From the NCBI GenBank assembly GCA_022819985.1, contig JAJEGH010000023.1:1-64000 (forward strand): a stretch of DNA of 64,000 bases, in the 5' to 3' direction. This document shows positions 10,403 to 24,785 of the stretch, one piece after another. Position 1 is the stretch's first letter, and the number at the start of each line of letters is the position of its first letter. Under the pieces are notes generated by a model. The model saw nothing but the letters and a program-made list of their open reading frames with translations. It ran no database searches and was not told the origin of the DNA. The position numbers and the translations under genes were made by a program. This stretch comes from Alphaproteobacteria bacterium. GTDB taxonomy: Bacteria; Pseudomonadota; Alphaproteobacteria; Bin65.

Positions 10403-13270
10403 ATGCGCCTGTCGTGGAACGAAGTCCGCGCCCGCGCCGCCGCCTTCGCGGAGGAGTGGAAGAACGCACAATACGAGAAGGGCGAGACCCAGAGCTTCTA
10501 CAACGAGTTCTTTGCGGTGTTCGGCGTCCGGCGGCGCTCCGTCGCGCGCTACGAAGAGCATGTGAAGAAACTGGCCGGGATCCCCCGCTTCAGCGACCCG
10601 GACCTGTTCGGCGACCGCAAGCGGGTTTCGGCGCCGGGCGGTAGCAGCGGTTTTATCGACCTGTTCTGGCCCGGCGTCCTGATTGTCGAACAGAAAAGCG
10701 CTGGGCGCGATCTGGAGAAGGCTTACGGCCAAGCCGGCGAGTATTTCGACGCGCTGCCGGAGCGCGACCGACCCCGCTACATCCTGGTGAGCGATTTCCA
10801 GACCTTCGAACTGCACGATTTGGACGAGCGGGAGGAGGTCACTTTCGCGCTGGCGGACCTGCCCGCCAATGTCGAGAAATTCGGCTTCATCCTAGGCGTG
10901 CAGCGCCGCACCTTCCGCGACCAGGACCCGGCCAATATCGAGGCCGCCGAACTGGTCGGCCGCCTGCACGATGCGCTCGAAGCCGCGGACTACAAGGGTC
11001 ACGATCTCGAACGCCTCCTGGTGCGGATTGTGTTCTGCCTGTTCGCCGACGACACCGGCATTTTCGAGCGCGACATCTTCCTCGACCTGATCGAGCATCG
11101 CACGAGCGAAGACGGATCGGACACCGGTGCCCGGCTCGCGGAGCTGTTCCAGGTGCTCGACACGCCGGAAGCCGAACGCCAGACAACGCTGGACGAAGAC
11201 CTCGCCCGCTTCCCCTACGTCAACGGCGCCCTGTTCGAAGGAACGCTGCGCATTTCGTGGTTCGACTCCGCCATGCGCGCGGCGCTGCTCGACGCCTGCC
11301 GCTTCGACTGGTCAAACATCTCGCCGGCGATTTTCGGGGCACTGTTCCAGTCGGTCATGGACCCGAAGGAACGCCGCGCCAAGGGCGCGCACTACACGAC
11401 CGAGAAGAACATCCTCAAGGTCATCGAGCCGCTGTTCCTCGACGACCTGCGCGCCGAATTCGCCCGGCTGAAGGCGCGGCGCGACACCCGCCGCCGGGCG
11501 GAACTGCTGCGTTTTCAAGAGCGGCTCGGCTCGCTGCGCTTCTTCGACCCGGCCTGCGGCTGCGGCAATTTCCTGATTATTGCCTACCGGGAATTGCGCG
11601 CCCTCGAAATCGAGGTGCTGCGGGAAGTCCTTCCGCGGCACCGGACAGGCGTGCAGCAGACCGACGTACTGACCGATACGCTTTCGGTCGTCGATGTGGA
11701 CCAGTTCTACGGCATCGAGATCGGCGAGTTCGCGGCCCGGATCGCCGAGACGGCGCTGTGGATGATGGACCACATTATGAACAACCGGCTGAGCCTCGCC
11801 TTCGGCCGGACCTTCGCGCGGATACCGCTGGAAACGTCGCCGCATATCCTGCACGGCGACGCGCTGGAGGCCGATTGGGCGAGCCTGCTGCCGCCGGCCG
11901 ACTGTTCCTTCGTGTTCGGCAATCCGCCCTTCGGCGGCTCCAAATACCAGACGGCGGAACAGCGCGCGCAGGTGCGCCGGATCGCGGCGCTCGGCAAGAG
12001 CGGCGGCACGCTGGATTACGTCGCGGCGTGGTTTATCAAGGCCGGAGAGTATGTCCGGAAAAGCAAGGCCCGGATCGGCTTCGTCGCCACCAACTCGATC
12101 ACCCAGGGCGAGCAGGTGGCGCAACTCTGGCCGGTCCTGTTCGGACGCTGCAAGCTGGAGATCGCCTTCGCCCACCGTACCTTCGCCTGGGGATCGGACG
12201 CGCGCGGCAAGGCCCATGTCCACGTCGTCATTCTCGGCCTCGACCGGAGGGAGGCCGTGCGCGCCGAAAGGCGCCTGTTCAGCTATCCCGACATTAACGG
12301 CGACCCGGAGGAAAGCCACCACGCCGCGCTCTCGCCCTATCTGTTCGACGCCGCCGGCCTCGCCGATCCGCACCTGACGGTGCGGGAGGAGAGCAGGCCG
12401 ATTAACGGGACGGGGCGGCTTCTAAGCGGAAGCCAGCCCATCGACGACGGCGAGTACATCTTCAACGCGGAGGAACGCGCCGAACTGCTAGAGGCTGAAC
12501 CGGACGCCAGGCAATTTCTTCGTCCCTATGTCGGCGCTCTCGAATACCTTCAAGGCGGGGAACGCTGGATTCTGGCATTGCAGGAAGCATCGCCGACGGC
12601 GTTGAAACGTCTTCCTTTGGTCCGGCAGCACATGGCCGCGGTCCGTCGATTTCGGGCGAAGAGCAAGCGCAAGAGCACGTTGGCGATTGCCGACTATCCG
12701 ACGCGGTACAACGTCGAGGTTATCCCCATCGCACCGTTTCTTGCCGTCCCCAAAGTCAGTTCGGAGCGGCGGGAGTATGTGCCGGTGGGTTGGCTGGAAC
12801 CGCCAACCATTCCGAGCGACCTCGTCTTTGTTCTTCAGAACGCCACCCTCGCCGATTTCGGGCTGCTGACCTCGGCGATGCACATGGCGTGGTTGCGCCA
12901 TATCGGCGGGCGGCTGAAAAGCGACTACCGCTACTCCATCGGCCTCGTCTACAACACCTTCCCGACGCCGCGGGGCTTCGCGGAAGGGAAGGCGGACCTG
13001 TCGAAACTGGAACCGCCGGCGCAAGCAGTGCTCGACGCCCGCGCCGCCCACCGCGGCGCCACGCTGGCCGACCTCTACGACCCCGACCTGATGCCGCCGG
13101 ACCTGCGCAAGGCCCACCGCGCCCTCGACCGCGCCGTAGACCGCCTCTACCGCCGCAAAAGCTTCGCCACCGAACGCGAACGCGTCGAACACCTGTTCAC
13201 GCTATACGAAAAAATGCGTGCGCCGCTTGAGGCGGGGATGAAAGGGAAACGAAAAAGGCGATCAATCTAG
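10403..13270 (+). CDS. MmeI-like single-chain restriction-modification enzyme (type IIL/IIG)
   Basis: A 955-residue protein joining nuclease and methyltransferase. The N-terminal nuclease carries the D-x9-E-x-K site (FIDLFWPGVLIVEQKSAGRD, D86, E96, K98), the spacing seen in MmeI. The central amino-methyltransferase has motif I FFDPACGCGNFL near residue 382 and motif IV GNPPFGG near 507, the NPPF form typical of N6-adenine methylation. A target-recognition domain and helical C-terminus follow. Such enzymes methylate one strand of the site and cut at a fixed distance, so no separate methylase or specificity gene is needed. The recognition sequence is unknown. The gene starts 25 bases after the molybdopterin enzyme but is probably unrelated. 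Confidence 0.88.
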   Translation: MRLSWNEVRARAAAFAEEWKNAQYEKGETQSFYNEFFAVFGVRRRSVARYEEHVKKLAGIPRFSDPDLFGDRKRVSAPGGSSGFIDLFWPGVLIVEQKSAGRDLEKAYGQAGEYFDALPERDRPRYILVSDFQTFELHDLDEREEVTFALADLPANVEKFGFILGVQRRTFRDQDPANIEAAELVGRLHDALEAADYKGHDLERLLVRIVFCLFADDTGIFERDIFLDLIEHRTSEDGSDTGARLAELFQVLDTPEAERQTTLDEDLARFPYVNGALFEGTLRISWFDSAMRAALLDACRFDWSNISPAIFGALFQSVMDPKERRAKGAHYTTEKNILKVIEPLFLDDLRAEFARLKARRDTRRRAELLRFQERLGSLRFFDPACGCGNFLIIAYRELRALEIEVLREVLPRHRTGVQQTDVLTDTLSVVDVDQFYGIEIGEFAARIAETALWMMDHIMNNRLSLAFGRTFARIPLETSPHILHGDALEADWASLLPPADCSFVFGNPPFGGSKYQTAEQRAQVRRIAALGKSGGTLDYVAAWFIKAGEYVRKSKARIGFVATNSITQGEQVAQLWPVLFGRCKLEIAFAHRTFAWGSDARGKAHVHVVILGLDRREAVRAERRLFSYPDINGDPEESHHAALSPYLFDAAGLADPHLTVREESRPINGTGRLLSGSQPIDDGEYIFNAEERAELLEAEPDARQFLRPYVGALEYLQGGERWILALQEASPTALKRLPLVRQHMAAVRRFRAKSKRKSTLAIADYPTRYNVEVIPIAPFLAVPKVSSERREYVPVGWLEPPTIPSDLVFVLQNATLADFGLLTSAMHMAWLRHIGGRLKSDYRYSIGLVYNTFPTPRGFAEGKADLSKLEPPAQAVLDARAAHRGATLADLYDPDLMPPDLRKAHRALDRAVDRLYRRKSFATERERVEHLFTLYEKMRAPLEAGMKGKRKRRSI

Positions 13271-22202: not shown

Positions 22203-22247
22203 GTTTTCCTTTCCCGCCGCCGTCAATCCGAGTAACCACACCCTCGT

Positions 22248-22370
22248 CGTCATCCCGACCGAGCGCAGCGAGCGGAGGGAACTCGGCTCGGCCTATCCGA
22301 CAAGAACCCGAGGCCGGCGACGGGATTCCTCCATTTTACCACCCTTGGCGTGGCTCCGGCCGGAATGACG
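22248..22370. repeat. Dispersed palindromic repeat, family B, copy 1
   Basis: It begins CGTCATCCCGACCGAG and ends GGCCGGAATGACG, the imperfect inverted ends of the element. Internal blocks (CTCGGCTCGG, ACAAGAACCC, AGGCC, GATTCCTCC, GGCTCC) match 24303-24426. The rest of the gap up to 22593 holds the linked 42-base sequence at 22361 and then AT-richer leader DNA of the HNH gene, with an isolated TTGACA at 22442 but no fitting -10. Confidence 0.75.
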
Positions 22371-22402
22371 GGATAGGGTGACGTGATGGAAAGGGGCGGG
22401 TC
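22361..22402 (+). repeat. Copy of the GIY-YIG leader and first codons
   Basis: Over 42 bases this stretch differs at only three positions from 24455-24496, which spans the upstream region and first six codons of the GIY-YIG gene. After it the similarity stops. It is therefore either a 5' remnant of a deleted GIY-YIG gene or part of a repeat in which such genes start. Confidence 0.6.
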
Positions 22403-22593
22403 CGGCATAAACGATGAGGGTGCTAAACCGGGTATGGCTGCTTGACAGGCTGGTTAAGGTCCGACGCGGGAGGTTGTAAGACCAGCTAGTCAGAACGAGT
22501 GACAAGCGCTGTTAGAATTTGGCTTGCCAATTGAAAGCACCCACATCATACCCCCCTAACCTGAGTTTCAAACTACCTAGAAAGCTAGCAAAG

Positions 22594-24255
22594 ATGACAC
22601 GTTCGAAGTACTTGGCATCGCTAACCGATGAGAAGCGTCGGCAACTCGAAAGACGACTCCATGACCGACAAACGAAGCTCTGCTTCATTTGCGACGAGGT
22701 GATCGATCTGGTGTTGCACAAGGGAGAGATAGACATCGACCATATCGATCCGCTAGCGAAGGACGGTCTGGATGCGGAGAACAACTTCGCGCTGACTCAC
22801 TCTTCATGCAATCGGAGTAAAGGTACGTCGAATCTTGAAGTTGCGCGCCGATTGGCGGAGTTTGAGCGGCTTCAGGAACAGGCGCGCCAAGCTGGAAAGC
22901 GCGGAGCCAATCTTGGCGACGTACTTGAACGTCATGGTGGATCCAAGGCACAACTGCGAATTAGAAGCAAAAATGGGAATGCGGAATTCAGCCTCTCAGA
23001 AGTCGGTCTGAACGAAATCCGTCGTGTTCCGCTCCTTCAAGATAAGCTAAGTGGCATGCAATCCTTCTTCACCTCGCTACCACTTGAGTATTTGCACCAC
23101 GACGACCGCATCAACCCGCGAAGCATCGGCTCGAACATCCGCGGTCTGATCGAGGAATTCAGGGATTCCCGGCCCCAGTTGCATGTGGCGCTCGCTTGGT
23201 GGGAGGCATCGGAAGATGATGCGGGCGAGATCAAAGTGTTCGATGGGCAGCATAAGGCAGCGGCACAGATTCTGTTGGGCGTGCGTGAGTTGCCCGTGCG
23301 GATTTTTGTCACTCCTGATACGAACGTGCTGCTACAAGCCAACACGAACGCTGGCGGCAAACTGCGCCAAGTCGCATTCGACACGGCGGTGATGCGGCAC
23401 TTGGGAAGCACGCTCTACGCAGAACGTGTCAATCAATTCCGTAATCTTCGAGGACTCTCCGACAACGACTATTCGTTCTCCGAGCAGGATCTCGTGCGCT
23501 TTTTTCGTGGTGAGCAGCGCGAGATGAAACGCTATATCGTAGACGCGCAGCGCGACGCTGTGATGCGTGCACCGGCGAATAGCTTAGTGGAATTCGTCGA
23601 ATGGGCTGGAAAGGGGGCGAATCGACCGCTCTCCTACACCGCCATCGAGCGGTCATTCTTCAAGGAGTTTCTATACAAGGAAGCGCTCGATAGCTCAATC
23701 GATCAGGAGCTTGAGCAAGGTACTAATCCGCGTCAGCTCGAACGTAAGCAGCTAATCTGCATCATGAATCTCTTCGCCGAGGTTTTCTTTATTGGGAAAT
23801 GGGATCCGGAAATCGGAGGCCGGAGGATCGAAAACCGGTTACGGGACGGCGATACGATTCAACAGAGTCACTTGCGAGCGTGGCGGGTGGCCCGAGAGGA
23901 GGTTTTGGCAAACCTGTTGCGCTGGCTTCGGCTGGTAATTGAGAATTACTTCGCCTATACTGGTCAAATGTATCATAATGACCGACTGCTTCACCAGCAG
24001 CTTCCCGACTCTCTTTGGGACCGCATGCGGAACTTCCTTACGAATATTTCAAGCCTTCCCTGTTGGATTGACAGAGACTTCAGCGGGTCAATTTTTGGGC
24101 CAAAGCGGAATCTCGATTTTTGGGAAAGAGTTTTCAGAACCGGAAAGACACCGGACGGAACCCAAGTGCTTGCGCAACCCTTGGACTTAAGTCAGTTGAT
24201 TGTACCAAGGGAAGGGAATTCGAAGGGACGGCATGAACTTACTAATTCGGCGTGA
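22594..24255 (+). CDS. HNH nuclease fused to a ParB/DndB-like DGQHK protein
   Basis: A 553-residue protein. The N-terminus has an HNH site: zinc-type CFICDE near residue 31, then EIDIDHIDPLAKDGLDAENN and THSSCNRSKG. From about residue 155 comes a segment resembling the ParB/sulfiredoxin/DndB superfamily: INPRSIGSNIRGLIEEF, then IKVFDGQHKAAAQILLG near 220-235 (a DGQHR-type motif). A helical C-terminus of about 280 residues has no recognised domain. GmrSD and SspE-type restriction factors join a DGQQR-bearing DUF262 to a C-terminal HNH, so this is a related logic in reverse order. Codon use is less GC-rich than the neighbours and repeats flank it, suggesting transfer. ATG 22594 is chosen over a TTG at 22519. 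Function is unproven. Confidence 0.75.
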   Translation: MTRSKYLASLTDEKRRQLERRLHDRQTKLCFICDEVIDLVLHKGEIDIDHIDPLAKDGLDAENNFALTHSSCNRSKGTSNLEVARRLAEFERLQEQARQAGKRGANLGDVLERHGGSKAQLRIRSKNGNAEFSLSEVGLNEIRRVPLLQDKLSGMQSFFTSLPLEYLHHDDRINPRSIGSNIRGLIEEFRDSRPQLHVALAWWEASEDDAGEIKVFDGQHKAAAQILLGVRELPVRIFVTPDTNVLLQANTNAGGKLRQVAFDTAVMRHLGSTLYAERVNQFRNLRGLSDNDYSFSEQDLVRFFRGEQREMKRYIVDAQRDAVMRAPANSLVEFVEWAGKGANRPLSYTAIERSFFKEFLYKEALDSSIDQELEQGTNPRQLERKQLICIMNLFAEVFFIGKWDPEIGGRRIENRLRDGDTIQQSHLRAWRVAREEVLANLLRWLRLVIENYFAYTGQMYHNDRLLHQQLPDSLWDRMRNFLTNISSLPCWIDRDFSGSIFGPKRNLDFWERVFRTGKTPDGTQVLAQPLDLSQLIVPREGNSKGRHELTNSA

Positions 24256-24302
24256 TGTTGTTTACACCATCCGAAATGTCAATGAAGATCGGAATCCCTC
24301 GC

Positions 24303-24426
24303 CGTCATTCCGACCGAGAAGCGAATGGAAATCTCGGCTCGGTCCCGCCAACAAGAACCCCAAGGCCTGCGCCGAGATTCCTCCGCTCCGCCCCGGCCGG
24401 GGGCCGGGGCTCCGGTCGGAATGACG
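24303..24426. repeat. Dispersed palindromic repeat, family B, copy 2
   Basis: The ends CGTCATTCCGACCGAG and CCGGTCGGAATGACG are inverted copies of each other. Blocks match 22248-22370 in the same order. The two copies bracket the HNH-DGQHK gene. Downstream, a second GGAATGACG at 24456 leads into the GIY-YIG start. Confidence 0.78.
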
Positions 24427-24454
24427 GGTGGGGTTTGCTGCCCTGGTACTGATT

Positions 24455-24496
24455 CGGAATGACGGGATAGGGTGACGCGATGGAAAAGGGCGGGTT
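24455..24496 (+). repeat. Repeat-linked leader containing the GIY-YIG start codon
   Basis: This 42-base sequence matches 22361-22402 with three mismatches. It includes the family B end GGAATGACG, a spacer GGATAGGGTGACG and the ATG of the GIY-YIG gene at 24480. No normal GGAGG site lies before that ATG; AGGGTG is the closest. Confidence 0.65.
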
Positions 24497-24785
24497 CGTT
24501 TACATGCTCGGGAGCCGGTCCGGTGTTTTGTACATCGGTGTCACCAATAATCTTGAGCGCCGCCTGTCCGAGCATAAATCGGGGGCGGTCGAAGGCTTCA
24601 CCAGGAAATACCGGGTCAACCGGCTGCTCTGGTACGAGCGCTACGACCGGATCGAGGATGCGATCGCCCGGGAAAAACAGTTGAAAAACTGGCGCCGGGA
24701 GAAGAAAGCGCGGTTGATCGAACGCGAAAACCCGGACTACGCGGATATTTCAGAGGAATGGTACGAGAGCACCGCAACGGTATGA
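24480..24785 (+). CDS. GIY-YIG nuclease family protein
   Basis: A 101-residue single-domain GIY-YIG protein. The two tyrosine motifs are FVYMLGS and LYIGVT, followed by the Arg of LERRLSEHKSG and the Glu of AIAREKQLKNWRR, so the catalytic set is complete. These small UvrC-N-like nucleases are common and mostly uncharacterised. It lies directly after a family B repeat, and its own start is in a repeat-linked sequence, which hints that the gene and the repeat travel together. Confidence 0.85.
   Translation: MEKGGFVYMLGSRSGVLYIGVTNNLERRLSEHKSGAVEGFTRKYRVNRLLWYERYDRIEDAIAREKQLKNWRREKKARLIERENPDYADISEEWYESTATV

Follow-up and report, generated by a model that had tools for sequence, protein, structure and literature searches.

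A 553-residue protein encoded in a 64,000-nucleotide stretch of alphaproteobacterial DNA (hereafter the window) joins an N-terminal HNH nuclease domain to a predicted ParB/sulfiredoxin-fold domain and a long helical C-terminal domain, and is probably an undescribed anti-phage weapon. That probable role is suggested by the presence of its distant relatives among phage-defense genes and in phages. We favor, with reasonable though far from complete confidence, the reading that the gene specifies a restriction-type nuclease that stands alone and has spread horizontally; its HNH domain would be licensed by an NTP, and it would work as GmrSD, SspE, and DndI do while belonging to a separate family. 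The modification sensing that an earlier note on this DNA had envisaged is possible. The features discussed below are collected in Table 1.

Table 1. Features of the window gene, its product, and its insertion site
Feature	Position in window	Strand	Basis
HNH-ParB-fold-helical protein, 553 aa (P0001)	22594..24255	+	ORF; one of 10 intact family members
HNH nuclease domain, residues ~12-93; D49/H50, N64, N73; Cys30, Cys33, Cys72	22627..22872	+	PF01844/PF13395
ParB/sulfiredoxin-fold domain (predicted), residues ~148-259; Box-I-like NPR (174-176), Box-II-like DGQHK (217-221)	23035..23370	+	VIA, hhalign
C-terminal all-helical domain, residues 257-553 folded alone	23362..24252	+	structure prediction
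Inserted segment, 1892 bp, 52% GC	22405..24296	.	site comparison with six congeners
Left copy of dispersed repeat, ending in truncated GIY-YIG gene start	22242..22404	+	repeat comparison
Right repeat copy, running into intact GIY-YIG gene (24480-24785)	24297..24498	+	repeat comparison; PF01541 2.9e-17 for the GIY-YIG gene

Domain architecture of the encoded protein

The ORF, its frame, and its start stand as given earlier, and the starts of the homologs fall at a near-identical residue in the family alignment. Between the window gene and its phage-borne homolog L020, the three codon positions are 71, 84, and 36% identical; the gap between 84% at second positions and only 36% at third positions shows strong purifying selection on the protein, so the ORF is not a product of chance. 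Synonymous sites are saturated in the codon comparison. A search upstream of the window gene recovered no sigma-70 promoter-like site. At the sequence level the HNH domain is the sole domain visible in the protein, and the seven family members scanned against PADLOC-DB 2.0 matched no full-length model, yielding either Cas9 or PtuB hits confined to the HNH region or none.

The N-terminal placement of the HNH domain claimed in the earlier note is borne out by profile searches: PF01844 was detected at residues 32-78 with 27.1 bits against a cut-off of 21.4 (E 4.5e-6), and PF13395 also scored above its cut-off (E 2.8e-5). The former profile was found in 10 of 10 members at E values up to 10. With the curated score passed and H50 and N64 invariant, the protein is assignable by sequence to the HNH endonucleases (PF01844). 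Along with R74, these two residues are invariant across the alignment of the 10 intact members; the distant member L022 has histidine in place of both D49 and N73, a common HNH variant. Cys33 and Cys72, which with Cys30 are presumed to be the zinc ligands of the domain, are lost jointly in five members (L019, L045, L046, L047, and L022) and retained jointly in the other five of the 10, and the catalytic HNH residues stay in place in the members that lack the pair. The HNH domains of Cas9 and IscB are among the closest matches in both sequence and structure, with the predicted model reaching a VIA Z of ~7 against those of Cas9.

Behind the HNH domain, the earlier note had reported a ParB-superfamily motif. 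The motif is present, as VFDGQHK at residues 215-221, and the fold is upheld by the predicted structure, even though no sequence HMM sees the link to ParB. In the AlphaFold2 model, which was built from five sequences (pLDDT 78), VIA aligns the middle domain with PadC at a Z of 10.5 (rmsd 2.4 over 98 residues), with ParB-CDP at 9.2, and with sulfiredoxin at 8.7. Foldseek taken alone is weak for the ParB fold (E ~0.01). The hhalign match of this domain to ParB (E 0.077) is non-significant, yet it stays in register across 78 columns, with the ParB QPR set against NPR and the ParB GERR box against the GQHK box. Throughout the family, FDGQHK is invariant in 10 of 10 members, down to 21% identity, as are P175 and R176; at position 221, every member has lysine where DGQHR and DGQQR proteins have arginine. 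The middle domain is predicted from these comparisons to adopt a ParB/sulfiredoxin superfamily fold, so that the structure check by which the earlier note proposed to look for a missing ParB-like fold came out in favor of one.

Membership in the DUF262/GmrSD or DndB families was considered and fails every sequence test. The profiles PF03235 (DUF262/GmrSD_N), PF14072, and TIGR03187 matched none of the 10 members, ParB_N (PF02195) likewise matched none at E values up to 10, and hhalign comparisons of the middle region with DndB, GmrSD (11 proteins), and ParB alignments gave nothing significant.

The remaining ~280 residues were described earlier as a C terminus of unknown fold, and that description holds. 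The region is helical, is predicted confidently on its own (pLDDT 81, pTM 0.82), and is common in its long form to all 10 intact proteins. It lacks a match in the PDB by Foldseek or VIA; the best VIA Z is 4.9 and Foldseek is never better than E 1.9, and a known fold is still possible.

Taken as a working unit, the three domains suggest a switchable nuclease. The N-terminal HNH domain would nick or cut DNA, the ParB-fold domain would bind an NTP via NPR and DGQHK and gate the nuclease, and the helical domain is probably a sensor or an oligomerization module. A trigger, be it a feature of the DNA, a partner, or a signal of infection, would throw the NTP switch and license the cleavage of invading DNA.

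Provenance and lateral acquisition of the gene

Nine further intact members were recovered (L002, L020, L021, L019, L045, L046, L022, L047, and L048), while a decayed copy occupies an eleventh locus, L083. Genome-search hits weaker than about E 1e-10 were mostly HNH-only and were excluded from the family. The nearest relatives of the window protein by identity are L020 (68%, on a 102-kb phage contig), L002 (65%, in a MAG), and L021 (49%, on a phage contig), followed by L019, L045, and L046 (42-44%) from genomes of its own class that are labeled sphingomonad-like from their gene content; L022, L047, and L048 are distant at 21-24%. The gene tree agrees in grouping the window protein with L020 from the phage contig and L002 from the MAG, apart from the copies of its own class, such that its closest relatives are a phage-borne copy and one from an unrelated MAG. 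Searches by tblastn of a plasmid collection (with P0001, P0010, and P0011) and a phage collection (with P0001 and P0007) returned no matches, nor did scans of viral contigs with P0001, P0010, and P0011; viral-contig scans with the alignments A1 and A2 recovered only the same three loci.

The earlier note had remarked that the gene is less GC-rich than its surroundings and saw this as consistent with a mobile gene. Both points are sustained: its GC content is 53% against 66% for the window, and congeneric genomes have empty or alternatively filled sites at the same position. The flanking HAD and thiolase genes are found in six congeners at 75-93% identity, and all six are without the window gene there. 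In two of them (G005 and G001) one repeat is left between the HAD and thiolase genes, accompanied in G005 by the GIY-YIG gene, and in two others (G002 and G006) there is no repeat. A further congener, G003, has at the orthologous site a different segment of 43% GC, whose gene combines SLFN_AlbA_2 and HATPase_c_4 (L099 1349-2932). The site has thus taken in two different low-GC genes and may be a small cargo hotspot. It is these empty and alternatively filled sites that establish mobility: the window gene was acquired horizontally, as a single 1.9-kb insert.

The bracketing repeats to which the earlier note appealed are real (identity 74% across 137 nt, 93% across 44 nt), but they belong to a native repeat that is dispersed and recurs elsewhere in the contig; hence, they do not show mobility by themselves, and we reject them as sole evidence for the ends of a mobile element. 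The repeat itself is an imperfect palindrome of ~135 nt with dispersed copies in the same contig (L145, L150, L152, and L154). Elsewhere in the window, at 10403-13270 and ~9 kb upstream of the gene, lies an MmeI-like type IIG restriction-modification enzyme (PADLOC REase_MTase_IIG, 1147 bits).

The distribution of the family bears on whether these proteins are chromosomal regulators or DNA-repair factors of alphaproteobacteria, a reading that we consider very unlikely. Two sphingomonad-like genomes do share a position for the gene, between thrS and infC (L045 and L046, with two extra genes intervening in L045), and in a third (L019) it is solitary, with housekeeping genes on either side. The thrS-infC loci look like settled chromosomal positions, and their shared location counts against a defensive role because it fits a settled chromosomal one. 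Against such a role for the family stand its phage-borne copies, its similarity across lineages, and its very patchy distribution, with a close form in just 3 of 299 genomes of the sphingomonad-like family and, among 11 genomes of the window organism's order, a copy solely in the window genome.

Genomic neighborhoods and the predicted role

Strong defense genes adjoin the family gene at 4 of the 11 loci as a raw count (L020, L047, L048, and L083), and because the loci were found by sequence alone, these contexts were not selected for. At the seven others (the window, L002, L019, L021, L022, L045, and L046) no strong defense gene is adjacent, which speaks against a defensive role. The earlier expectation of a defense context for the homologs is thereby realized in part, with homologs often in defense islands and two loci, those at thrS-infC, that look settled; its converse, homologs consistently in non-defense surroundings, is not what the neighbor survey recovered. 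At L020 the gene adjoins DrmD (3e-192), a DrmMI/type IIG methylase, a DruE-like helicase (2e-103), and a TcmP-like protein, in a locus that is bounded by two recombinases on a phage contig with tail genes. The wider segment (L020 77-18514 with L084 and L085) resembles a phage-borne hybrid defense cassette that combines DISARM-like DrmD/DrmMI with a DruE-like helicase and TcmP. At L047, the genes immediately upstream encode a CBASS cyclase (4e-88) and NucC (2e-100). In L048 the order is integrase, Dcm, Vsr, MvaI/BcnI REase, family member, and PifA-like NTPase (2e-157), and L083 has Dcm and Vsr followed by the decayed member. At the MAG locus L002, a HicA/AbiEii-like gene lies upstream of the family gene, whose downstream end is overlapped by a gene for a 184-aa Mrr_N winged-helix protein (L002 11638-12192), a possible partner in that lineage.

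The distant L048 and L083, which adjoin Dcm and Vsr, and the proximity of L020 to an adenine methylase raise the prospect that the protein supplies the cleavage function of a classical R-M system, with a cytosine methyltransferase shielding self DNA and the HNH-ParB protein cleaving DNA that is unmethylated. We deem this improbable, as L048 already possesses its own MvaI/BcnI REase, six members (the window gene, L002, L019, L045, L046, and L047) are without an adjoining methyltransferase, and the nearest methyltransferase in the window is the self-contained MmeI-like enzyme.

Two phage loci are without defense genes: L021 is directly upstream of terminase genes and L022 is between tail genes. 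HNH proteins adjoining terminase are known packaging parts. Together with the solitary nature of the window insert, these positions would suit a phage or otherwise selfish nuclease, whether a homing-type endonuclease or a packaging factor linked to terminase, with repeated landings in chromosomes. Such an origin is unlikely, since the six loci compared have no common flank or target site other than the shared thrS-infC one, a 553-residue protein whose ParB-fold and helical domains are conserved does not resemble the small homing enzymes, and other members sit in defense islands. We would also entertain, with less than even confidence, a bolder proposal: the family may constitute a new class of single-gene anti-phage nucleases in which a ParB-type, possibly CTP-dependent, switch and a new helical sensor license the N-terminal HNH domain in response to a trigger not yet described.

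Relationship to known systems

The HNH domain of the window protein is related to those of Cas9 and IscB, but the protein has no RuvC match. A guide-RNA mechanism of the Cas9/IscB type was considered and rejected, there being no conserved flanking DNA between close homologs and no Rfam hit. With DndB and other DGQHR proteins the family has in common the DGQH motif and a predicted ParB/Srx fold. It differs from them in having DGQHK rather than DGQHR in 10 of 10 members, in its fusion to HNH, and in failing to match their profiles; no dnd genes were recognized in the flanks examined. Novel bacterial fusions of a ParB-CTPase fold to HNH (PF01844), of unknown function, have been reported (PMC12704722), and in them, too, a single protein carries both domain types. 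That survey used PF02195, which matches none of the members described here, and overlap between the two sets is possible. ParB-fold proteins bind CTP, ATP, or GTP (PMC12704722). We found no paper in the open-access literature on a ParB-HNH protein as an anti-phage protein. As a separate observation, certain short (~370-450 aa) GmrSD_N proteins (G112:C10, G093:C165, and G093:C44) have an HNH domain related to that of this family.

The coupling of a ParB-fold NTPase to HNH is an emerging theme, seen in GmrSD, SspE, DndI, and BrxU. In SspE and DndI, recognition leads to NTP hydrolysis, which licenses cleavage; defense is abolished or strongly reduced when either the arginine of DGQQR or the asparagine of the HNH site is mutated (PMC13251355, PMC11662687). 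Like these systems, the window protein has in one chain an HNH domain and a (here predicted) ParB-superfamily NTP domain with DGQ(Q/H)(R/K), and the family shares their mobile or defense-island context. The differences are nevertheless substantial: no member matches the DUF262 or DUF1524 of the GmrSD type, all members have lysine in place of the arginine that is essential in SspE and DndI, a substitution that counts against the favored reading, and an extra 280-residue helical domain is present, for which no match was found among solved structures. The HNH domain, C-terminal in GmrSD and SspE, is N-terminal here, and the reversed order that the earlier note had pointed out is thus confirmed. 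Surveys built on PF02195, DUF262, or DndB would miss this family, which is small enough for single-gene testing. It would present the same logic as SspE and DndI, recognition followed by hydrolysis and activation, with the order of the domains reversed and with a ParB domain, undetected by current sequence models, in the place of DUF262.
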